From Spirochaetales bacterium (GTDB lineage: Bacteria; Spirochaetota; Spirochaetia; Treponematales; Treponemataceae), in the NCBI GenBank assembly GCA_016929605.1, contig JAFGIM010000150.1, positions 1-42,861 on the forward strand: DNA of 42,861 nt. The letters run 5' to 3'. The translations under genes were made by a program, and so were the position numbers. Position 1 is the first letter of the stretch; each line of letters starts with the position of its first letter. Below, piece by piece: positions 17,054-42,648 of this stretch. Under the pieces are notes generated by a model. That model was not told where the DNA came from. It saw nothing but the letters and a program-made list of their open reading frames with translations, and made no database searches.

Positions 17054-17953
17054 TTATTTAGGCCAGGTCGAGAAGTTGATCTCGGCCCTGCTCCACAGCG
17101 CCTTTGATCCGTCTGAGTCTTTACCGTTCCCGGAAAATTCGGAATCGATAACACGAGTAAACGAGGCACGCTCTGCTGCAGCAAAATCAAGTCCTCCCTT
17201 AAGATCGCGTACCCGCTTCGCTACATCCCTGTGGAGTGCGCTTTCGTCGGTAGATGCAATCGCCTCTATACGATCGTCGCCAAAGGGCTCTCCGACAACA
17301 ATGCGAAAGGGTGCATTGGCTGGAGGAATAAGCAAAACTTCTCCTTTTGCAACAAAACTATCAGGGTGAAAGCGGTTCGGGAATAAAAGAACGGTAGTCC
17401 CGTCGCTCTGATGATCCAGAATAAGCAGATGACAGTCGCGCTCGGAAGTAAACCTAAAGGTTACCTGCTCTCCCGCCCTGAACTGGGATCTTCCATCCGC
17501 AGTAGAAAAGGAGACGCGAAACTGAACCGGTATCTTTTCTTCCCTCGCCTTTAGTTCCTTGATGGTTAAGACCGAGGCATTCCACCGCTCCAGCATCCGC
17601 TCCTTTTCCTTTTGGGGATATTTTACCAATAGCCACGCATGCCAAACCTTTCCAACCTTCTGGGTAGCGGTTCCGGAAACCTCGCAGTTAACAAGGGCAA
17701 ACTCTGGCGAAACCTGGAGTCCCGAAGCCTCAAGGGCCGGGGCAATCCCTATACGCTCAAGAATCAGGGCTTTTGCCGAGCGGACTGCCTTTTGAACAGC
17801 GTCATGCTCGCTCTCCCCGTCGACCGAGGAGCCTCGCTCATACATAAACTCGCCATCATCCTTATGCGGGCTGTCCCACCAATACGGCTGTTCGGCAAAT
17901 GACAGAGTAGCGACACCAAAACAGAAGAAGGCCAGAAACAATGCTTTCTTCAT
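17054..17953 (-). CDS. Secreted LPP20-like/DUF4384 protein
   Basis: 299 residues with a clear signal peptide (1-20, ending SFAE). Residues 25-115 resemble LPP20-type domains (YWWDSPHKDDGEFMYERGSS and a Ser/Ala-rich helix). Residues 145-240 have the DUF4384 pattern (FRAGEQVTFRFTSERDCHLLILDHQSDGTTVLLFPNRF). DUF4384 is often found with secreted caspase-like proteins and is thought to be a structural or binding module. Here the gene overlaps the caspase-FGE gene by 4 bases (ATGA), so the two products are translationally coupled and probably act together in the periplasm. Confidence 0.82.
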   Translation of the reverse strand: MKKALFLAFFCFGVATLSFAEQPYWWDSPHKDDGEFMYERGSSVDGESEHDAVQKAVRSAKALILERIGIAPALEASGLQVSPEFALVNCEVSGTATQKVGKVWHAWLLVKYPQKEKERMLERWNASVLTIKELKAREEKIPVQFRVSFSTADGRSQFRAGEQVTFRFTSERDCHLLILDHQSDGTTVLLFPNRFHPDSFVAKGEVLLIPPANAPFRIVVGEPFGDDRIEAIASTDESALHRDVAKRVRDLKGGLDFAAAERASFTRVIDSEFSGNGKDSDGSKALWSRAEINFSTWPK

Positions 17954-19590
17954 TCCGACTTCTCCTCGGCGCCCACTCTTGATCGGGCTACACGAAACCC
18001 ACGTTCACTGTTCGCGTTAACTCCATCATCGTCCTCCCTGTTCCAGGGATACATTGCCTTTTTTCCCTCGTCCCAACTACCGCCACGGATTATATGATTC
18101 GAACCTTTAAAGGGTCCACGGGGATCAACCTTATCTTCGCGAGTATAATCACTCTCAAAGTCCCAGCACCATTCTTCCACGTTTCCACTCATATCGTAGA
18201 GGCCCCACACATTTGCCTTTTTGGTCCGCACTGGCTGTGTGCTATCAAGAGAGTTCTTCTCATACCAGCCAGCCTCAAACGGATCATCGCTTCCCGCATA
18301 GGTAAGGCTTTCGCCAGTAAGTCCACCCTTAGCCGCATATTCCCACTCGGCCTCGGTAGGCAATCGATATCCATTTGCAGACCAATCGCAGCGCACAGTG
18401 TATTGCCCGTCGTAAATCTTCGAGTGCAGGGTGTCCCCCAGTTTTTCAAGGGCTTTTATCGGCATGTTTTTTTTCATTTCCCGAAACTCAGGATCATCAA
18501 ACGCCGAAAGCGTATACGCGGGGGTGAGTCCCTCCCGTTCGCTCAGCGCGTTACAGTAACGTATCGCATCGTACCAGGAGACGCATTCAACCGGCCTGGA
18601 AGGGTCCTGAAATGCGCTCGGATTGCTTCCGATTACCGACTCGTACTCGGCCTGAGTAACCTCGGTAACCCCAATGTAATAAGGACTTAAAGTAACCTTG
18701 TGATGTCTTGCCCTTCCTATATAAAAGGTGCCCCCATCAATAGAAGCCATAGCCGGACTTTGGTGTGTCTTGACCGGGGATACAGCAGCTACAGGAGGCC
18801 TTGAAGGGGATGCGGCTTCTTCTGCATTGCCAGGCGTCTGCTGCGCGGGGAGCCCTGCAAGATAGATAGGCTCAAAGGATTGGTTATATTCACCGGGAAC
18901 CTGTGCTCCTCCGGTTTTTTCGGAAACTTGTTTTCGGACTTCCATCAGGATATCCTGAAAACTTTTGCCCTCCTGACGGATCGCCGAACAAAGGGCCGGG
19001 GTAAACAGACCATCCTGCGCAATATTGCCCGCTTCGGCCGAATAGACCAGAATCGAATTTCGCGGGCGCACCGCCACAACGGAAAGGCCGCGTCCTGTAC
19101 TACGGGTGCTTGTAGCCGGCAGAGGATTATTCCGGCAGGCATCCAGAACAACGATATTGGCATTTGTTGCAGCGGCGTCAAGACTTGCCATAATCTCGTC
19201 CACAGAGACAGACCTGGTCTCGACCCTGCGTTCGTCCGGAATCTCGGCATTAGAAGGAATTAGGTAATTCTTGCCGTTTACCTGGATTCCATGCCCGCCA
19301 TAATGGAAAAAGGCGATTCCGCCCTGTTTTTCAAGCATTTCTTCAAAGTCCAGAATCGCATCCATCATGGCTTCGCGACTTGCGTCTTCAAGAAGGGTTA
19401 CCGTAAATCCAATTGACTCAAGCGATCCCTTCAGTTCCCTCGCCTCCGCTACAGGAGTTGCAAGACTCGCAAAGTGACTATACCGCGCGTTAGCAATAAG
19501 AAGAGCGTTTTTCTGTTGGGCATGTACCGAAAACCCGGCTACCACTAAAAAACTGACTGCCACAATGATAAATCTGAACTTTAGTACCAT
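17950..19590 (-). CDS. Secreted caspase-like peptidase fused to FGE-sulfatase domain
   Basis: 546 residues: signal peptide 1-24; caspase (peptidase C14) domain about 27-240 with catalytic His100 in HYGGHG and Cys152 in DACRNNP; a Pro/Ala/Ser linker about 245-285; then a formylglycine-generating-enzyme-like (SUMF1) domain about 285-540 with GGTFYIG, GYRLPTEAEWEYAA, LYDMSGNVEEWCWD, IIRGGSWDEG and RGFRVAR. The caspase dyad is intact. Copper-binding cysteines of true FGE are not evident, so the C-terminal half is more likely a binding fold than an oxidase. It is the first gene of a two-gene operon with the DUF4384 protein. The target is unknown. Confidence 0.9.
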   Translation of the reverse strand: MVLKFRFIIVAVSFLVVAGFSVHAQQKNALLIANARYSHFASLATPVAEARELKGSLESIGFTVTLLEDASREAMMDAILDFEEMLEKQGGIAFFHYGGHGIQVNGKNYLIPSNAEIPDERRVETRSVSVDEIMASLDAAATNANIVVLDACRNNPLPATSTRSTGRGLSVVAVRPRNSILVYSAEAGNIAQDGLFTPALCSAIRQEGKSFQDILMEVRKQVSEKTGGAQVPGEYNQSFEPIYLAGLPAQQTPGNAEEAASPSRPPVAAVSPVKTHQSPAMASIDGGTFYIGRARHHKVTLSPYYIGVTEVTQAEYESVIGSNPSAFQDPSRPVECVSWYDAIRYCNALSEREGLTPAYTLSAFDDPEFREMKKNMPIKALEKLGDTLHSKIYDGQYTVRCDWSANGYRLPTEAEWEYAAKGGLTGESLTYAGSDDPFEAGWYEKNSLDSTQPVRTKKANVWGLYDMSGNVEEWCWDFESDYTREDKVDPRGPFKGSNHIIRGGSWDEGKKAMYPWNREDDDGVNANSERGFRVARSRVGAEEKSE

Positions 19591-25025: not shown

Positions 25026-27959
25026 ATGAATACATACATTTCAGCGAGGACCGAATCAAGGAGCGCACGGAGTTTCTTGCAGGGATTATTCCCCAACCAA
25101 TGGCGAGGAGCGGCGGATGCTCGATTCCTTTCCAGCCGTTGTGTAAACGCTCTTGGTGTATGTGGCTTGCCCTTTACCGCCCCGGTACTACAGGAACTCT
25201 TAAAGATAAGAGCCTTTGAAGACTTACTGCAAAACGTAAAGAAATCGACAGACTCATTACTCCTTTGCGTAAATGAAAATGTCTCAGTTAGTGCCTTTCG
25301 GCATTCTGTCTCTTCTATATCCGAAATACATCTGCCGGCAGCCCTTCTGCAAGAAATAACGTCCCTTCTTTCTTCCGTTCCACACTGGGCTGGACACATC
25401 AATTCGGAAGGCGAACATGTAATCAACCTGAAGTTTCCCAGTCCCGGCCCCCATTTTTACTCGAATCTGTTAATGGGAAACCGGACAGGTTTTGACTATC
25501 CCTTACAAACAACCCCAAAAAGCGTTGTAGACCGTGTGGGTCGAGGCAGTTTTAGATCGCATGCAGCCACCCAGGTACTTGCAACTCGTTGGGACCTTAG
25601 ACAGGAAGAAAACGGATTTCCCAGTAACCGACAATTTTATCTTTGCGAAGCGGGTAAGCCTTTTTTTTATTCTGCAAATCCCGAAAGTGACTGCGTTTCC
25701 GAAGGCCGTTGCATTCACGGACAAAACGTCACACGCATAGAATACGCAACTACGTGCGGCGTAACTATTTCCCGAACGATATTTTTGCCTAAACAGGAAC
25801 AAGGCTTACCTCTTGCAGTAGAAATTCAGCGCATAGAGATTACCAATAAAAGCACTACGCCGCGGACCCTGCGCCTGGTATATACCGGGATGTTTGGACC
25901 GACCAAGCCCGGAGCCCTTCAGGAAGACGTTCTGTACAGCAACATCATCATGGAAGGTGGAATTCTCTACAACGACGATGGAACGGTCAAGGCGGTAAGT
26001 CCCAATTACTTCCCCGCTGCGGATAAAGAAGACCTGCGCTTTAATGCATTAGTGATTCGCGACGAAAAGACCAATCGCTTTCCGGACGAGTTCTGTCTTA
26101 ACTACAACGACTTTGTCGGAAGTGGCACCCTGGAAAACCCGGCATTTCTTGCTCAACTTCCCAACAAGCTCTCCCGCAAAGGGCCGGGCTTTTTTGCCCT
26201 TGCCGCGGAAATAACGCTCAAACCGGGGGAAACAGGATTCGTGGATAACTTTACCGGTCTTGTTTCCAGTAAGGCAAATCCATCCTTTAGCCAAGAGTCC
26301 CTTGCCAAGGAAGTGGACAATCTCCTTCGCTATTTCAAGGATACAGAGTCAGTGCCACAGGCCCTTAGGTCAGTAAAAGATTTCTTTACAAGCTATGCCT
26401 CCTTCTTTGCGCTGGAAAGCGAGCGAAAAGATTTCTCGGTGTACTGCAGCAAGAATCTACCCTTCCAGGTATTGTACCAAACCTTTGTCTCCCGATCCTT
26501 TGGACAAACCCAAAAAGGCTACCGAGAAATTGGATTCAGGGAGATACAGGATCTTTTTGCATCCATGTATTATTTTCATGCTCAGGGAAACAGCGCCTTT
26601 GCCAAACAACTACTGAGCGAATGGGTGGCACAGGTTCATGAGTTTGGTTTTGCGAACCACAACTTTTTTTGGGAAGGAAAAGAAGCAGGCAATTGGTCTG
26701 ATGATGCACTCTGGCTCCATCAGGCGGTAAGCCGCTATGTACACTTAACTGGAGACGTTGCCTATCTTGACGAGATGGTGTGCGTTGCAGGAGAAACAAA
26801 GAAAACAAGAAGTGTCTACGATACCTTAATCGCCGCCATCCGCTACTCCACGGAGATATCTATTGGCAAGCACGCTCTTCCCCTTCTTGACCGCGCGGAC
26901 TGGAATGATTGTCTTCGACTTGACCGCAACTATCATTCAGGAGCCGAAAAGGAAAAGATATACCGAGAAACCGGCAGCTATGAGTCAAACTGCACAGAAA
27001 GTGTAATGAATGCCTTCCTTGCAATAACCGCTGCAAAGGATTTGAAGTCTCTTGCAGAATTGAAACAGGATACAAAAACAGTTCAATGGCTAACAGGAGT
27101 TATAAGTCGCCTAGACTCGGCAGTCAAGAAACACGCATGGATTGGCAACACCTATGCCCGACTCCTTTTTAATCAGTATCCCGGATTTACCCATGCAGGA
27201 GCTGACGGGGATGGTCTTGATACAGACGGAAGCGGTGGAACCTTCTTCCTTAACAGCTTCTCCTGGTCTATTCTTTCGGGAACCGCGGACGATACACAAA
27301 TAGCCTCCATGCTTGAAGTAGTACGCAAAAAACTTAAAACACCGTTCGGGCTAAAGCTGGTATCTCCCAATGATCTGAGCCGGGTGGTCAGTGACGCGGC
27401 AAGCGCCGAGTACTTCCCTGGCGATCGGGAAAACGGGGCAGTATTTAAGCACGCGAGCATGATGGCGGTATCTGCAATGCTCGACGCCGCGAAGCGGGTG
27501 CAAGACCCTTCCCTGGCAAAGGAACTAGCCGGGGAAGCATGGACTATGATCGATCTGGTATATCCCGGTCGAACCATGGCCGATCCCTTTACCCTTGCCG
27601 GTAACCCCCGCTTTTGCACGCAATACAATAATAGCGAAACAGGGGAGAACATCGGACCATTATTGAGCGGCACCTCAACATGGTTTATTCTCGCCCTTCT
27701 TAAGGCCTATGGCATTGAACTTTCCGGAAAGGGTTTGACTATGGATCCCATCCTGAGACCTGAGGATCGATCAATGGCACTTACGCTAACCATGGGAGAT
27801 GCAACAATACATATCCACTATGAAAAAGACGAGGGCTTTAGCCGAGCAAAAGATTGCACGATGAGCGTTACCCTTGACGGAACGGCGATAAAGGGACATT
27901 GTATCCCGCTCCCGCTTTCTGCAGGAGAGCATGAGCTTACTGTTAGGCTTACATATTAA
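25026..27959 (+). CDS. GH94-like glycoside phosphorylase
   Basis: A 977-residue cytoplasmic protein with no signal peptide. The central and C-terminal (alpha/alpha)6 region resembles GH94 (former glycosyltransferase family 36) phosphorylases: GYREIGFREIQDLFASMYYF, NWSDDALWLHQAVSRYV, LLDRADWNDCLRL (DWND with the expected catalytic Asp near residues 625-628) and TGENIGPLLSGTSTWFI near the C-terminus. Such enzymes split beta-linked disaccharides or oligosaccharides with phosphate to give sugar 1-phosphate. About 150 N-terminal residues are not recognisable. The sugar cannot be told. It would match an imported glucan fragment and a UDPGP enzyme that uses sugar 1-phosphate. The ACT gene follows after 11 bases. 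Confidence 0.75.
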   Translation: MNTYISARTESRSARSFLQGLFPNQWRGAADARFLSSRCVNALGVCGLPFTAPVLQELLKIRAFEDLLQNVKKSTDSLLLCVNENVSVSAFRHSVSSISEIHLPAALLQEITSLLSSVPHWAGHINSEGEHVINLKFPSPGPHFYSNLLMGNRTGFDYPLQTTPKSVVDRVGRGSFRSHAATQVLATRWDLRQEENGFPSNRQFYLCEAGKPFFYSANPESDCVSEGRCIHGQNVTRIEYATTCGVTISRTIFLPKQEQGLPLAVEIQRIEITNKSTTPRTLRLVYTGMFGPTKPGALQEDVLYSNIIMEGGILYNDDGTVKAVSPNYFPAADKEDLRFNALVIRDEKTNRFPDEFCLNYNDFVGSGTLENPAFLAQLPNKLSRKGPGFFALAAEITLKPGETGFVDNFTGLVSSKANPSFSQESLAKEVDNLLRYFKDTESVPQALRSVKDFFTSYASFFALESERKDFSVYCSKNLPFQVLYQTFVSRSFGQTQKGYREIGFREIQDLFASMYYFHAQGNSAFAKQLLSEWVAQVHEFGFANHNFFWEGKEAGNWSDDALWLHQAVSRYVHLTGDVAYLDEMVCVAGETKKTRSVYDTLIAAIRYSTEISIGKHALPLLDRADWNDCLRLDRNYHSGAEKEKIYRETGSYESNCTESVMNAFLAITAAKDLKSLAELKQDTKTVQWLTGVISRLDSAVKKHAWIGNTYARLLFNQYPGFTHAGADGDGLDTDGSGGTFFLNSFSWSILSGTADDTQIASMLEVVRKKLKTPFGLKLVSPNDLSRVVSDAASAEYFPGDRENGAVFKHASMMAVSAMLDAAKRVQDPSLAKELAGEAWTMIDLVYPGRTMADPFTLAGNPRFCTQYNNSETGENIGPLLSGTSTWFILALLKAYGIELSGKGLTMDPILRPEDRSMALTLTMGDATIHIHYEKDEGFSRAKDCTMSVTLDGTAIKGHCIPLPLSAGEHELTVRLTY

Positions 27960-33885: not shown

Positions 33886-33954
33886 AGTATAATGACCGCC
33901 GGTCAGTAAATAACCGGTAAACCAATAAATAACACCATGTTATAGAAATGTCAA
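33886..33954 (-). promoter_or_regulatory. tetR operon promoter region
   Basis: TATACT (33886-33891) is a good -10 box, placing the transcript start about 10 bases before the TTG start; its -35 is poor, as expected for a regulated promoter. A second, weaker pair further upstream is TTGACA (33949-33954) with TATTTA (33926-33931), 17-base spacing. Confidence 0.45.
33893..33905. promoter_or_regulatory. TetR-type operator
   Basis: TGACCGCCGGTCA, a 13-base palindrome with perfect 6-base arms around a central C. It lies directly upstream of the tetR -10 box and 77 bases from the -35 of the divergent operon. Confidence 0.75.
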
Positions 33955-33981: not shown

Positions 33982-34010
33982 TTGACATATCAGAGTCGAC
34001 AACCTACAAT
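33982..34010 (+). promoter_or_regulatory. Near-consensus promoter directly at an ATG
   Basis: TTGACA (33982-33987), exactly 17 bases, then TACAAT (34005-34010). ATG 34017 comes 6 bases later and there is no ribosome site; a leaderless mRNA is expected. Confidence 0.8.
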
Positions 34011-34016
34011 CAACCA

Positions 34017-35141
34017 ATGAAAAAATCACTAATATGCCTAGCAAGCTTTGTTTTCACCATTTATACGCTCACTGCCCAGTCCGCCTGGTTTGAAGCTCAA
34101 AAGGACGAGGCGGTAATCAAGTCGGTAACCGCGACATCAGAATTGATAGAAGGGCAATATGACGGTAAATACCTGTACCCTCCCATAAATATTCTGGATG
34201 GCAGCTTTGACACAACCTGGTGCGAGGCCGATCAAAACGGCCCCGGGATCGGCGAGTCAATTACCATTGAGTTTGAACATGCGGTGAGTTTTGATGAAAT
34301 ACAGATCGTAAATGGCTTTGTCTCCGGTAATGACTATTATGGAAAAAACAACCGTGTAAAAGGACTAAGGATTACACAGGTTGCAGGCAAACATTTTCAG
34401 CAAAAAGACTATACCCTTTCCGATAAAAAACCAAATTGGCAATCGATACAGTTTGAGCTCCTCCAAACAGCGCAAATCCTCACCCTCAAGATAACCGATG
34501 TCTATAAGGGCTCTAAGTATGACGATACCTGCCTCTGCGATATACGACTTATGTATAAAGGGAAACCTATTCCCTTTAAGAATGTTGCCCAGATAAAAAA
34601 GGTGCAGGAGGAAAACTCCCGTTATGCGCTTAATAATTCAACGACAAACTTTGAACAACAGTTTTTCTCACTTTTCAGGAAAAGTAACAGTGACACTCTC
34701 TTTTTAATGGGCAATAATCCCAAGGAATCGATGCTGATCAAAATAGACAATACAAATGCCAAAACCATACGCATTGTACACATCGATGAAATAGCAATAC
34801 TTCCAACAACGGATACAACCACCCTGAGAAATAACATCAACGCGTATACCACAAAGGAATTTGGTACAAACTTTAATGCACTCCTTGGCTGGCTCGATGA
34901 ATTTGAACCATCTCAGGCCGACTGGATCAGTCTTGAAGTACCATCAGGATACGAATGGGGAAAAAGAATATTCTACGAGATTGGCAATTCACGTATCCTG
35001 GTAAAAGAGAACATTGACTACATCGATGTGACCACGATACTTTTGGTAAAGATTGACGGAGATCGAATTTTCCTGAACGGAGTTCCCTACACAATCCTTG
35101 ACTCCTCGCGTGTACGCCATCAAGTCCTTAGCGAACTATAG
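34017..35141 (+). CDS. Secreted protein with NADase-type glycan-binding domain
   Basis: 374 residues with signal peptide 1-20 (ending LTAQ). Residues about 30-185 form a discoidin-like beta-sandwich of the NADase-type glycan-binding family: ILDGSFDTTWCEADQNGPGIGESITIEF, ITQVAGKHFQQKDYTLSDK, LKITDVYKGSKYDDTCLCDIRL. The C-terminal about 180 residues are not recognised. There is no catalytic NADase segment visible, so it is taken as a binding or structural protein in the periplasm or cell surface. It is the first gene of a four-gene unit with VanW, GNAT and a polytopic protein. Confidence 0.8.
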   Translation: MKKSLICLASFVFTIYTLTAQSAWFEAQKDEAVIKSVTATSELIEGQYDGKYLYPPINILDGSFDTTWCEADQNGPGIGESITIEFEHAVSFDEIQIVNGFVSGNDYYGKNNRVKGLRITQVAGKHFQQKDYTLSDKKPNWQSIQFELLQTAQILTLKITDVYKGSKYDDTCLCDIRLMYKGKPIPFKNVAQIKKVQEENSRYALNNSTTNFEQQFFSLFRKSNSDTLFLMGNNPKESMLIKIDNTNAKTIRIVHIDEIAILPTTDTTTLRNNINAYTTKEFGTNFNALLGWLDEFEPSQADWISLEVPSGYEWGKRIFYEIGNSRILVKENIDYIDVTTILLVKIDGDRIFLNGVPYTILDSSRVRHQVLSEL

Positions 35142-36011
35142 ATGTACCGCTTTACCCCACAGAAAAAAAGAAGCCGCTTACGGATAGAAATAGGACGGCT
35201 TTTCTTTTCTCTCCTTAGATACCGACTCTGGCTACAACAAGCTAAAAACTATCAACTGTGCCGCGTCAAAGACCCCTCATCTATTCAAGAGCAATATCCA
35301 TATAAGGTGTTTTCCCATCGAACCCCGCTTTTTCGCCATCTCTGCGATATTGATAGCCGTCTTCAGGAAAACAAGGTTGTTAATCTTTCTATTGCCGTAT
35401 CAAAATTACATGGAATCCTTCTTGAGCCGGGGAAAACACTTTCGTATTGGAAGTGTATCGGGTACCCGAGCGCAATACGGGGTTTTAAGAAGGGCGTGGT
35501 TCTAGTAAATGGAGTGGCCACCGAGAGAGTCGGAGGAGGCCTGTGTCAGCTTTCTAACTTGCTGTATTGGATGACCGTGCACACGCCTCTTTCGGTAGTT
35601 GAGCGATACCGACACAGCTTTGATGTATTTCCCGATCAAAATCGAACCCAGCCATTTGGAAGCGGTGCAACCTGTGTATATAACTATCGTGATCTTCAGA
35701 TAAAAAATGAAACAGATCAAAGTTTTCTTCTTGATCTTTCCATACACGATGGAGAACTCTGGGGATCTTGGCACTGCGCACATACCATTAACGACACGTA
35801 CGAGGTATATGAGCGAAGCCACTGGATTACACAGGAAATGCCTGGTCTGTATGTTCGACACAATATCTTGGGAAGAAGGCGTTACAGCCTGAACAGTACA
35901 CATGTCCGCGAATTACGCGACGATATATTGCTTACCGAGAACCATGCAATTATGATGTATTCACCGCTTATCTCGGCCCCCACATCCTTTTGCGATACAG
36001 GCAGCTTATGA
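35142..36011 (+). CDS. VanW-family protein
   Basis: 289 residues with the VanW core at about 75-205: LEPGKTLSYWKCIGYPSAIRG, KKGVVLVNGVATERVGGGLC, QLSNLLYWMTVHTPLSVVER and RHSFDVFPDQNRT. VanW proteins occur with vancomycin-resistance clusters and in many genomes without any; their reaction is unknown, and cell-wall involvement is suspected. There is no signal peptide. The ATG follows the upstream TAG directly (TAGATG) with no ribosome site, so translation probably depends on re-initiation. Confidence 0.88.
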   Translation: MYRFTPQKKRSRLRIEIGRLFFSLLRYRLWLQQAKNYQLCRVKDPSSIQEQYPYKVFSHRTPLFRHLCDIDSRLQENKVVNLSIAVSKLHGILLEPGKTLSYWKCIGYPSAIRGFKKGVVLVNGVATERVGGGLCQLSNLLYWMTVHTPLSVVERYRHSFDVFPDQNRTQPFGSGATCVYNYRDLQIKNETDQSFLLDLSIHDGELWGSWHCAHTINDTYEVYERSHWITQEMPGLYVRHNILGRRRYSLNSTHVRELRDDILLTENHAIMMYSPLISAPTSFCDTGSL

Positions 36012-36490
36012 TTCGTCCATATAATGAACAAGATTCAGAAGTAGTTCTTGATCTCTGGCAGCGGTTTGACGAGGTGCATATAAAGGAAGAACCACATATG
36101 TTTCGCTCACCTGGTTCGGAAGAAAGAATTGCACGCCTTGAAAAATACACCAGAGAGAAGCAATGCCAAGAGGGCTCAGAACCCTTCTTACTGGTTTGTG
36201 ACAGCGGATCCCGAATTAACGGTTTTATATGCGGCATAATTCGGGAAACACCTGCCGCTGCGTTACTGATACCTCATAGGATTGTAGAGCTTCATGCCAT
36301 ATATGTAGATCCGGGTTTCAGATCCGGCAGGACAAGCAAGAATCTTGTTCAAACCGCCCTTAGTCGGGCAAAGAATGCGGGAGCTACCAGTGCGGTATGT
36401 CATATATGGACATTTAACAAGGCAGCTCAAAAACACATCACTTCCCTGGGATTTTCTGTGGTAAGTTCAAAGTATGAAAAAAAACTATAA
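36008..36490 (+). CDS. GNAT-family N-acetyltransferase
   Basis: 160 residues from ATG 36008, which overlaps the VanW stop (ATGA). The acetyl-CoA site is ELHAIYVDPGFRSGRTSKNLVQTAL (Arg/Gly loop around residues 104-116), followed by an A..H...FNKAAQKHITSLGF C-terminal pattern common in GNAT enzymes. The acceptor is unknown. An alternative start at 35990 lies inside VanW. The last 17 bases overlap the next gene. Confidence 0.87.
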   Translation: MIRPYNEQDSEVVLDLWQRFDEVHIKEEPHMFRSPGSEERIARLEKYTREKQCQEGSEPFLLVCDSGSRINGFICGIIRETPAAALLIPHRIVELHAIYVDPGFRSGRTSKNLVQTALSRAKNAGATSAVCHIWTFNKAAQKHITSLGFSVVSSKYEKKL

Positions 36491-37916
36491 GCGCTGCTAC
36501 TATCCAATCGCCGTGGGGCTACTGCTGTTCAGCATCTTTTGTATACGGTACAGGACACTTGCCTTATCAGCGCACCCAACCGGGCTTGATGGATATTACT
36601 ATGCACTTCAGGCAAAGTCTTTTGCGCAAACCGGTAAGCTGGAAAATCCTGATACAGCTCCGGGATATTATCTATGCGGACTATTCGCGTTTGTAAGCAG
36701 GGACGCAATTATTGGATGCAAGGTTTATTCAGCCCTTGCATCCACGCTCATCGCCTTATCAGTGTTCACCCTTCTTTGTAGTCTCTGCCCGACGCAAAGC
36801 AAGAAACCCTTACTCGGGCTTCTCTTGTGCGCAGCTATCCCATCTTCGGTACAGCTCTCTGTTAATTACATAAACAATCAGACAGGTCTTTACTTCTTTT
36901 TATTTTACGCATCGCTTATTATTCATTTGCTTCATGCAAGACACCAAAGACGCCCCACCCTCTTTGCTCTTGCAGCAGTACTGCTTATTCTCTCTCTTTT
37001 ATCTCATTTAATAACTGCTACCTATAGTCTGTTTTTTACAGCTTGTATCGCTTACCGCGCATTACCAAAAAAGATAACCCTGCCCCTTATGGTTGGCATT
37101 GTTTTTTCTATGCTCTATGTTGCCGCTCGTCATTATCCGCGGTTTGCCGGTATATTCTCTTGGACACCTACCATTCCAGCGATGTCCTCCTTTATGCGCT
37201 CCCGACTCGACTGGCGTCTTATCGCAGAACTTTCACTTCTACCAATACTTTGTTGGGCAGCGTGCATATACACTACGATAGTAAAGAAACGTTTTATACC
37301 CTACATCGGCGCCGCCTTTCTTTTATACTTTCCCTTTTGGGGAATGAACTCTCTTGATATGGGGTATCGTCTTTTTCTTTCGGCAAGTCCCTGCGCCATA
37401 GTACTTTTAGTACACCTATTACACAATCCAAGAAACCGGCTTACTTCCTTAACTCCCGCTTATACAGGAGCCTTACTTATGTGTGTAGCTGGCATAGTCA
37501 CTTCTTCCAGTATCTATGATCCACAAAATGATCCCCCCTATGAATATTACCGTACAGTTGCTAATAAGATAGATATCGGGGACGACTCACTATTAATTGC
37601 ACATCTGGGCATGAACCATGTGTACACATACTATCAAAATTTGCGAATGGCTCTTAACTACGTTCCCGATTTTCCATTCCGTAAGGAAAAGCTATGGCGT
37701 CTTGCGTATGGAGTGCAATCAACTACAGTGCAACATCTTTTCCCCGAAATGGACACCTTTGAGTTTGCTTCTCTTGTTCAACCGATAGACAGGAAATATC
37801 TTCTGATTCGCGAGGACATGTGGAATGAGTATCTAAGGCGCGAACAGCCGGATATAAGAGAGACGCGGCGTAACTGGTATAATCCTGCTACTCCGCGCCC
37901 CAAGTTTATCAGGTAA
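36474..37916 (+). CDS. Polytopic membrane protein, GT-C glycosyltransferase-like
   Basis: 480 residues with about 9-11 hydrophobic segments between residues 8 and 345 and a soluble C-terminal 130 residues. The first extracytoplasmic loop has HPTGLDGYYYALQAKSFAQTG, with an acidic residue in the position typical of GT-C lipid-phosphosugar transferases, followed by APGYYLCGLFAF. The match is to the general GT-C layout rather than to a named family. If correct, it would transfer a sugar from a polyprenyl carrier outside the membrane. It is the last gene of the unit, overlapping the GNAT gene by 17 bases. Confidence 0.6.
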   Translation: MKKNYKRCYYPIAVGLLLFSIFCIRYRTLALSAHPTGLDGYYYALQAKSFAQTGKLENPDTAPGYYLCGLFAFVSRDAIIGCKVYSALASTLIALSVFTLLCSLCPTQSKKPLLGLLLCAAIPSSVQLSVNYINNQTGLYFFLFYASLIIHLLHARHQRRPTLFALAAVLLILSLLSHLITATYSLFFTACIAYRALPKKITLPLMVGIVFSMLYVAARHYPRFAGIFSWTPTIPAMSSFMRSRLDWRLIAELSLLPILCWAACIYTTIVKKRFIPYIGAAFLLYFPFWGMNSLDMGYRLFLSASPCAIVLLVHLLHNPRNRLTSLTPAYTGALLMCVAGIVTSSSIYDPQNDPPYEYYRTVANKIDIGDDSLLIAHLGMNHVYTYYQNLRMALNYVPDFPFRKEKLWRLAYGVQSTTVQHLFPEMDTFEFASLVQPIDRKYLLIREDMWNEYLRREQPDIRETRRNWYNPATPRPKFIR

Positions 37917-37920
37917 TCAC

Positions 37921-38793
37921 TTAGTCATAGCGTTTCCACAACTTGGCAGCCATGAGCGACGCCTCTTGATCAGGAGGCATGGCAGGATCAGGGAAATGCC
38001 GGCAAATAGATCGAATATCCCGCTCAAGCATAGGCCTCGCTCGCTCATTGTATCTCGCGTCTACTGCTTGAGGAAAATCGATAATAACCGGCAGATTATC
38101 CCTAACCAGAATGTTGTACGGCGAGAGATCTCCATGGATGATATTCAAGTGCAACATACGTTCAATTGCATCAAGAAGTATCTCCTTCATTATCCGCTTC
38201 GTATCGCCATTCACCTGAACATCCCGTAACCGGGGCGCAGTAGTAGAGCCGCCACTTTCCTCATAGATAAATTCCATTGCAAGGGCTGTTGCACTTTTTG
38301 CGTAAGGAACTGGGACCGGAATATTCGCTTGATACAAGCGCTCCATTACCGAGTATTCTGAATATACCCAAAACGCCTGCAACTCGCTGGGGGTAGAAAG
38401 AATATGCATGGAGTCACGCCGACTGATTCCCGCTTCCGCAAGCCTGCCTTGAAGATACGACGAAAGAGATTGAAAACTCCTGTGTTCAATGTTCTTATAA
38501 GCTTTAATCGCCACATCTACCGATGCCTTGTCGCCCTGACCAGGACAGCGATACACACAAGCCTCTTTGCCCTGCTTTAACACTGGCCCTTTGTCGCTAA
38601 TAATTCCCTCTCCGATAAAAAAATCAAAAAGGGAATAATCTTCAACATTGTCAAAATCAATTTGACTAAAGTAATCTACATGTTGCTCTGCGCCGGCGTT
38701 TTTTTTGATTCTGGAAATCTCCCGTCTTTGACGCTGTTTGCGCGGAACCTTCCATTCGAATTCATCTAATTCTTCGTAATCTAACGTGTTCAT
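37921..38793 (-). CDS. RIO-type protein kinase
   Basis: 290 residues. The RIO kinase-like core starts near residue 70. ATP-site Lys97 is in DVAIKAYK; Glu in YSEYSVMERL (about 146-151); the catalytic loop is HGDLSPYNIL (220-229; Asp222, Asn227); the metal-binding IDFPQAVD is at 238-245. This is the short RIO1-like form found in archaea and a minority of bacteria; no substrate is known in bacteria. The N-terminal 45 residues are basic and acidic patches (RKQRQRREISRIKKN). AAAGGA precedes ATG 38793. Confidence 0.92.
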   Translation of the reverse strand: MNTLDYEELDEFEWKVPRKQRQRREISRIKKNAGAEQHVDYFSQIDFDNVEDYSLFDFFIGEGIISDKGPVLKQGKEACVYRCPGQGDKASVDVAIKAYKNIEHRSFQSLSSYLQGRLAEAGISRRDSMHILSTPSELQAFWVYSEYSVMERLYQANIPVPVPYAKSATALAMEFIYEESGGSTTAPRLRDVQVNGDTKRIMKEILLDAIERMLHLNIIHGDLSPYNILVRDNLPVIIDFPQAVDARYNERARPMLERDIRSICRHFPDPAMPPDQEASLMAAKLWKRYD

Positions 38794-41121: not shown

Positions 41122-42648
41122 TTACTGATACACCCGCACGTAATCGATAACCATATCAGCCCTGTTCATTGCATCATCCATTCCCTTCATGCCGCCCCAA
41201 AGGCCTCCCATAGCAACATTGAGGATCAAATGGAATGGCTTGTCAAATGGCCACACCCCATAGCGTGGAGCCTCTTTAAGAAAGTGATAAAACGGCTCGC
41301 CGTCAACATAGAAAAAGATAGCCTTGGGTGTCCACTCTACTGCATAGGTGTGGAAGTCGTCGGTAACACCCGCAATCTTGGCGGCTCTTGTTTTTTGCGT
41401 ACCCTTTCTATGATTGTAGTCCTGAGTATGAACGGAGGTATGAATCTTGTCTTGTTCAAAACCAACGTGTTCCATGATGTCAATTTCTCCGGAAGCAGGC
41501 CAGTCACCAAAGGTATTATTTTCGCTCATCATCCAAATAGCGGGCCAGGTTCCCCTACCCTTGGGGAGCTTTGCGCGTACCTCTATGTACCCATAGGTCC
41601 AGGAGGCCTTACCACGTGTAAGTAAACGCGCGCTTGACCACTTTCCTTTTGAATCCTTAATGGCGCTAATGGTGAGAGTGCCACCACTTACGCGGGAGTT
41701 ATCCCGGCTTTGTGTGTATATCTGGAGTTCTTCGTTCCACTTTCCCGAATCCGCCGCGTCATAATCCCATTTGGCGGGGTTCGGCGCCCCTTCATAATCA
41801 AACTCATCTGCCCAGGCGATTTTTTTTCCGGCAAGACCCTTCGCCCCTTCTTTCTTAAAAAGATCACTAAGACTTAGACCCATGTCTTTTGCCTCAGGGA
41901 TATCGGCACTGCCAGTCTTAAAGAAAACCGCCCTGCCGTACAGCGAGGGATCTTGATAGGATAAGTCGTCGGTATCCAGGGAACTCCAAATCAACTTTGA
42001 ATCACGATCAAGTGTCGTAGCTCCATTGGCGTGAGCCTGAAAACCTATATTCTTTCCATGCTCCACATTGAAGCCCTTGGGGAGAGGAAGAGCAGCCTCA
42101 AAGGCCCATCCTTCCTTGGTTTTGAATACGTGAGAGCGTACGCGTGAACCAGGAGAGTTTACCCCGGTAAGCGAAAGCGTATCCGTTTCTTTTTTTCCGA
42201 TATTGGTCGCGTTAATGGTCAGCTGCATGATTCCTTTTGAATAGGATCGTGCAGAAAGTTTATTCGTAAGGTTTACGTAAAACTCCAGGGAATCCTCGTT
42301 CCAAAAATCCTGTTTATGCTTGCCCGCGATTATCTTCGTATCCTGGGATGCCATATACACATAAAGCTCAATGCCGTTAGAAGCCACTGCAAAATCAAAC
42401 CATTGATTTTGAGTTGTATCGGGACTAATCGCAGGCCCGGTGGATACCCGCTGCACGGGGATACCCTTCCAATCATCGAGCGATCCGTCCAGAGTAATCT
42501 GTACCGGAAATGGAATATACACCACCGAGCCAGGAATTTGATCGGGAGCAATGGTGCCCTTGTCCTGTGCAAAAACTGACAGGGAAACTAATACCAAAAG
42601 AGCGAATACGCATACTGCGCGAAGACGCTGCCACACTGATGAGTTCAT
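41122..42648 (-). CDS. Secreted laminarinase: CBM9-like domain + GH16
   Basis: 508 residues: signal peptide 1-27 (ending SVFAQ); CBM9-like beta-sandwich about 45-245 (ITLDGSLDDWKGIPV, DFWNEDSLEFYVNLTN, GWAFEAALPLP); GH16 domain about 275-508 with WADEFDYEGAPNPAKWDYD, the catalytic site GEIDIMEHVG (first Glu nucleophile, last Glu acid/base) and HLILNVAMGGLWGG. The GH16 laminarinase group cuts beta-1,3-glucans. Start ATG 42648 has AGGAGGGG upstream. The product would release oligosaccharides for import; whether the ABC system at 7.3-11 kb takes them is inference. Confidence 0.94.
   Translation of the reverse strand: MNSSVWQRLRAVCVFALLVLVSLSVFAQDKGTIAPDQIPGSVVYIPFPVQITLDGSLDDWKGIPVQRVSTGPAISPDTTQNQWFDFAVASNGIELYVYMASQDTKIIAGKHKQDFWNEDSLEFYVNLTNKLSARSYSKGIMQLTINATNIGKKETDTLSLTGVNSPGSRVRSHVFKTKEGWAFEAALPLPKGFNVEHGKNIGFQAHANGATTLDRDSKLIWSSLDTDDLSYQDPSLYGRAVFFKTGSADIPEAKDMGLSLSDLFKKEGAKGLAGKKIAWADEFDYEGAPNPAKWDYDAADSGKWNEELQIYTQSRDNSRVSGGTLTISAIKDSKGKWSSARLLTRGKASWTYGYIEVRAKLPKGRGTWPAIWMMSENNTFGDWPASGEIDIMEHVGFEQDKIHTSVHTQDYNHRKGTQKTRAAKIAGVTDDFHTYAVEWTPKAIFFYVDGEPFYHFLKEAPRYGVWPFDKPFHLILNVAMGGLWGGMKGMDDAMNRADMVIDYVRVYQ

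Follow-up and report, generated by a model that had tools for sequence, protein, structure and literature searches.

Before 2024, the VanW proteins formed an orphan family; in that year two of them, LdtCd4 and LdtCd5 of Clostridioides difficile, proved to be L,D-transpeptidases, equipped with a transmembrane anchor and PG4 domains (PMC12729407, PMC11986978). According to a review, some VanW proteins are without L,D-transpeptidase activity (PMC12729407), and a survey of Leptospira scores VanW genes as vancomycin resistance (PMC11435864). Here we describe a four-gene unit in a 42,861-nucleotide stretch of DNA (contig JAFGIM010000150.1; hereafter the window) from a Spirochaetales bacterium, whose genome is a 2.16-Mb spirochaete metagenome-assembled genome, 78% complete. 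The unit encodes a secreted discoidin-like protein (DISC), a VanW-family protein, a GNAT acetyltransferase, and a polytopic membrane protein with a predicted GT-C glycosyltransferase fold. Its constant core, VanW and GT-C, usually joined by DISC and often by an acyltransferase, is conserved across the spirochaete phylum, a conclusion we consider well supported. On the basis of protein families and gene neighborhoods, we tentatively propose, with slightly less than even confidence, that the module is an undescribed system for modifying an envelope glycan, possibly peptidoglycan. The papers we searched on VanW in connection with Treponema, spirochetes or glycosyltransferases describe no such module, in agreement with the original prediction, made from this DNA alone, that the system was not known as described.

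The families co-occur in related genomes; had they failed to do so, that prediction would have been refuted. Among 59 relatives, GT-C, VanW, and full-length DISC share one distribution, the window's genome and three others, with a further weak, partial GT-C match in G048. Across 274 genomes of the window's family, GT-C is present in 32 and VanW in 34, with both in 31 (Fisher p 2e-36), and among 393 genomes sampled across the phylum VanW accompanies GT-C in 24 of 29 cases, compared to a background of 60 of 393 (p 2e-17); both p-values are nominal, since the genomes share ancestry and are not independent. Departures from the joint pattern within the family are limited to G219, G189, G236, and G240. 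The contig of G219 (L190), the sole GT-C-only genome of the family, ends inside DISC, where VanW would follow.

In the window, the four open reading frames lie on the forward strand and are tightly coupled, as originally proposed: DISC and VanW abut without a gap (TAG|ATG), VanW and GNAT share a 4-nucleotide ATGA overlap, and GNAT and GT-C overlap by 17 nucleotides. The operon is more than a chance arrangement, because the same genes adjoin one another in about 40 other spirochaete loci. Within the family, the three genes are neighbors almost everywhere that contigs allow, often overlapping, and full-length DISC homologs adjoin VanW in nearly all cassettes. Outside the family, the pair stays linked while the order is shuffled; over all loci, inside and outside the family, DISC-VanW-GTC, VanW-GTC-DISC, DISC-GTC-VanW, GTC-VanW-x-DISC, and VanW-GTC are represented (at L218 and L219, DISC and VanW were located by a six-frame hidden Markov model search, beneath an antisense open reading frame). 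The exact order DISC-VanW-GNAT-GTC recurs in G578 and G581, from another family of the same class; G578 is almost surely the cultured Sediminispirochaeta smaragdinae SEBR 4228T. Pairwise distances of VanW and GT-C are strongly correlated (r 0.86 overall and 0.80 inside the family), with 0 of 2000 permutations reaching as high a value, whereas DISC distances follow those of GT-C less closely (r 0.67 overall). A single genus supplies many of these loci, which cannot count as independent, as would be expected if chance or vertical inheritance held unrelated genes together without a shared function. We regard such an origin as very improbable, given the patchy presence (32 of 274 genomes) with joint gain and loss, the overlapping genes, the correlated divergence, and the rearranged gene orders found from family to family in the phylum, which are a stronger argument for linkage than the nominal p-values. 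A functional tie to the divergent TetR/RND operon was considered and rejected: the divergence is not kept in the neighborhoods of relatives and is thus incidental.

Table. Features of the four-gene unit (positions in the window)
Feature	Positions	Strand	Basis
Sigma-70-like promoter, TTGACA-N17-TACAAT	33982..34010	+	11 of 12 consensus positions matched
DISC, 374 aa, secreted, NADase-type discoidin domain	34017..35141	+	Pfam, NCBIfam, phmmer, homologs beside VanW
VanW-family protein, 289 aa	35142..36011	+	PF04294, E 8.7e-37
GNAT acetyltransferase, 160 aa, optional module member	36008..36490	+	PF00583; start taken at ATG 36008 (TTG 35990 in the version of the open-reading-frame caller)
Predicted GT-C-fold polytopic membrane glycosyltransferase, 480 aa	36474..37916	+	AlphaFold2 model, Foldseek, VIA-align, alignment of six

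What is the nature of the membrane protein? It matches no Pfam or NCBIfam family, and no solved homolog could be found by sequence for either this protein or VanW. An AlphaFold2 model built from six homologs (predicted local distance difference test [pLDDT] 69.5) nevertheless bears out the tentative GT-C assignment of the original prediction, for which a missing GT-C fold would have been a second refutation. Only GT-C enzymes stand at the top of the Foldseek matches (ArnT, 5ezm, E 2.1e-5; also oligosaccharyltransferase [OST], AftB, ALG12, and PMT), and all 50 of the best 50 PDB entries in VIA-align are GT-C enzymes, led by STT3/OST (8agc, Z 21.9, root-mean-square deviation 4.5, 364 residues aligned) and followed by PMT, AglB, PglB, and ArnT. 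A GLDG motif is invariant in the six aligned sequences, and its Asp39 (36588-36590) is placed at the first external loop predicted, where the second model helix (residues 37-53) begins, right after loop 31-36. The protein thus resembles ArnT, PglB/STT3, and PMT in its fold over about 360 residues and in the acidic residue of the first external loop; it differs from them in its low identity (about 10-12%), in a conserved C-terminal domain of its own that begins near residue 350, and in its operon with VanW.

The best structural matches, STT3, PMT, PglB, and ArnT, modify proteins and lipids, which raises the question of whether the substrates for glycosylation by the module are proteins of the periplasm or outer membrane, or glycolipids, rather than peptidoglycan, with VanW in an accessory or lipid-linked role. 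We consider this unlikely, although it is, with the exported transpeptidase discussed below, one of the two main alternatives. The GT-C enzymes matched include protein-, lipid-, and polysaccharide-acting members, and the common fold does not reveal the acceptor; VanW, for its part, is otherwise tied to peptidoglycan, and those neighboring genes that have a recognizable substrate lean the same way. Such neighbors occur in some lineages and comprise members of the M15 D-Ala-D-Ala carboxypeptidase family (L221, L223, and L228), SH3 domains (L220 and L224), GH3 glycosidases (five loci), and NlpC/P60 proteins (three loci). They favor peptidoglycan as the target, without proving it.

The reaction of VanW was regarded in the original prediction as unknown, a statement that the C. 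difficile enzymes have rendered out of date. Automatic annotation names the window protein as a glycopeptide-resistance factor, in line with the Leptospira survey, and one may consider it an accessory gene of glycopeptide resistance whose association with the remaining genes is coincidental. We reject this origin as highly improbable. The protein scores far under the cut-off of the VanW resistance model NF033128 (155.9 versus 365 bits), no van ligase, vanH or vanX gene was detected among the neighbors scanned, and VanW is linked to GT-C instead. In the VanW tree, the window protein pairs with that of G105 (Shimodaira-Hasegawa-like approximate likelihood-ratio test 96), and the cassette VanWs of the family, 32 in all, group in a single clade (support 100), separate from VanWs of Bacillota; in a collection of named genomes, its best relatives reside on Treponema contigs. 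At 73 Bacillota VanW loci, no constant partner was found beyond closely related genera, and the flanks contain no relative of DISC or GT-C.

Could the cassette VanW function as an exported L,D-transpeptidase in the manner of LdtCd4 and LdtCd5, cross-linking peptidoglycan or attaching proteins (perhaps DISC) to a wall that GT-C glycosylates? The cassette proteins share with these established enzymes the VanW domain and an invariant cysteine and histidine, Cys135 (35544-35546) and His158 (35613-35615) being conserved in 41 of 41 cassette VanWs. No L,D-transpeptidase of the YkuD type was found in the window's genome (G000), G105, G012, G032 or G578, some of which are incomplete, and the M15 carboxypeptidase-type genes beside some cassettes could supply tetrapeptides. 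Unlike the anchored, PG4-containing enzymes of C. difficile, however, cassette VanWs carry no signal peptide and, in most cases, no hydrophobic segment of transmembrane strength as judged by hydropathy; a Pfam scan of the window protein matched the VanW domain only, with no PG_binding_4 domain; and the linkage to a GT-C enzyme is a further difference. Together with the VanW proteins that lack this activity, these properties make an exported transpeptidase rather unlikely. Since a signal peptide and a strong membrane helix are missing, we predict that the cassette VanW probably acts on the cytoplasmic side, at the inner membrane face.

The AlphaFold2 model of the window VanW (pLDDT 82.3) places Cys135 at the N-terminus of a helix (residues 134-146), and a basic helix (12-32) is located at the N-terminus of the protein. 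Foldseek returned no fold relative in the PDB at E <= 0.001, and the best VIA-align match (Z 3.9) covered residues 217-275 only, with a G5 domain included among the matches, leaving the fold unplaced.

Two domain fusions involve VanW proteins beyond the cassette. In G225 (L204:2466-3830), a YqeG-type HAD phosphatase is fused to VanW in a protein of 455 residues, and a like fusion is suggested in G112 and G228, where the open frame around VanW is about as long. By analogy, the fusion suggests that an anchorless VanW can be cytosolic, which would speak against export, although its VanW falls outside the cassette clade. In G236 (L203:1795-3651), a 618-residue protein combines YidC (60KD_IMP), VanW, and G5 domains. 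Its gene adjoins those for a phosphoenolpyruvate mutase and for a fusion of 2-aminoethylphosphonate aminotransferase and nucleotidyltransferase, placing this VanW in a phosphonate-synthesis cluster.

DISC consists of a signal peptide (residues ~1-21), a discoidin glycan-binding domain (32-177), and a family-specific C-terminal part (~190-374). The NADase-type binding domain proposed for the first gene was recovered above cut-off in both Pfam (PF25302, NADase_transloc/F5-8C discoidin, residues 32-177, E 2.1e-28) and NCBIfam (NF047619, E 4.8e-33), and phmmer connects the protein to 7ji1_A (E 1.1e-7). While DISC resembles the NADase-type (SPN translocation) discoidin proteins in this domain, Pfam and NCBIfam scans detected the translocation/glycan-binding domain alone and no NADase catalytic domain, and cassette members have the extra C-terminal part. 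Inspection by eye identified a lipobox, and hence a lipoprotein, in several relatives. In some treponemes, extra DISC paralogs are scattered around the cassette, with up to three per locus (L177 and L173).

The third gene was correctly assigned as an acetyltransferase, its match to PF00583 (Acetyltransf_1) being weak yet above the cut-off (E 6.4e-9, 36.5 versus 20.7 bits). GNAT orthologs sit at the equivalent position in G105 (56% identity, with the sequence partly masked) and in G578 and G581 (E ~1e-38), and an unrelated GNAT gene overlaps the GT-C gene at the distant locus L225. At 14 other loci, we find instead a hexapeptide acyltransferase of 164-185 residues, its gene mostly touching that for GT-C. 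The best models for it are of the WcaF type, which acetylates extracellular polysaccharides, yet the match (E ~1e-20) remains below the family cut-off (74.2 versus 192 bits). The acyltransferase is therefore recurrent, but optional and interchangeable in type (GNAT or WcaF-like hexapeptide enzyme). The original prediction of a small envelope glycan acetylation or glycosylation system stands in part: the GT-C fold, the linkage, and the recurrence of an acetyltransferase agree with it, whereas acetylation is not the defining step because the enzyme is optional and of changing type.

We propose the following model for the module as an envelope-glycan modification system. A cytoplasmic acyltransferase, GNAT in the window and a WcaF-like hexapeptide enzyme elsewhere, would acetylate a sugar precursor. 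At the outer face of the inner membrane, the GT-C enzyme would move a sugar from a predicted polyprenyl-phosphate donor to an envelope glycan, the candidate acceptors being peptidoglycan and polymers linked to the wall or to a lipid. VanW, as a putative Cys/His enzyme, may act beside GT-C at the inner membrane face on a lipid-linked or peptide-bearing acceptor, conceivably by peptidyl transfer, in analogy to its L,D-transpeptidase cousins. DISC would bind the product outside. The envelope glycan as the target is itself inferred. In a bolder version, VanW and GT-C would form a two-enzyme membrane machine, with VanW at the cytoplasmic face acting on lipid-linked precursors of the cell wall through a novel reaction based on cysteine, and handing its product to the dedicated GT-C. 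The outcome would be a peptidoglycan or wall polymer, both acetylated and glycosylated, that is not known from other bacteria; we think this improbable, but offer it as speculation.

Several observations weigh against an envelope-glycan system as proposed here. The location of VanW rests on hydropathy, and a few homologs are borderline (mean Kyte-Doolittle value up to 1.57). The GT-C model is of moderate confidence. DISC has many paralogs elsewhere and tracks GT-C weakly inside the family (r 0.29), and GT-C relatives stand alone, without VanW, at L222, L226, L228, and L229. Lastly, the peptidoglycan-type neighbors are few and lineage-specific, and their numbers are raw counts.

The original prediction also placed a strong promoter ahead of the unit and found no strong ribosome site at any start. 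The promoter-like site is confirmed (Table), and inspection of all four gene starts revealed no convincing Shine-Dalgarno sequence. Only 6 nucleotides separate the end of the -10 box from the ATG of DISC; if the promoter is used, its transcript is therefore probably leaderless, which would account for the missing ribosome site at the first gene, a point absent from the original prediction. Many relatives show a Shine-Dalgarno-like purine stretch ahead of the first gene instead. An imperfect CCGGT/ACCGG inverted repeat at 33895-33925, beside the divergent TetR gene, was noted by eye as a possible TetR operator.

Other features of the window include a RIO1-like kinase gene (37921-38793), directly downstream of the GT-C gene and convergent with it, and a fusion of a caspase-like (C14) and an FGE-sulfatase domain (17950-19590). 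A GH94-type phosphorylase (25026-27959) and a beta-glucanase with GH16 and CBM9 domains (41122-42648) hint at a lifestyle on plant fiber or beta-glucan.

What is the relevance of this linkage? Throughout the spirochaete phylum, the anchorless type of VanW gains a GT-C glycosyltransferase as its constant partner, and the association is a caution against scoring VanW genes of spirochaetes as determinants of vancomycin resistance. Because the complete genome of a cultured organism, S. smaragdinae, contains an exact copy, the function of a stand-alone VanW becomes directly testable. The module points to a modification of envelope glycans, absent from the papers searched, in rumen and other treponemes.

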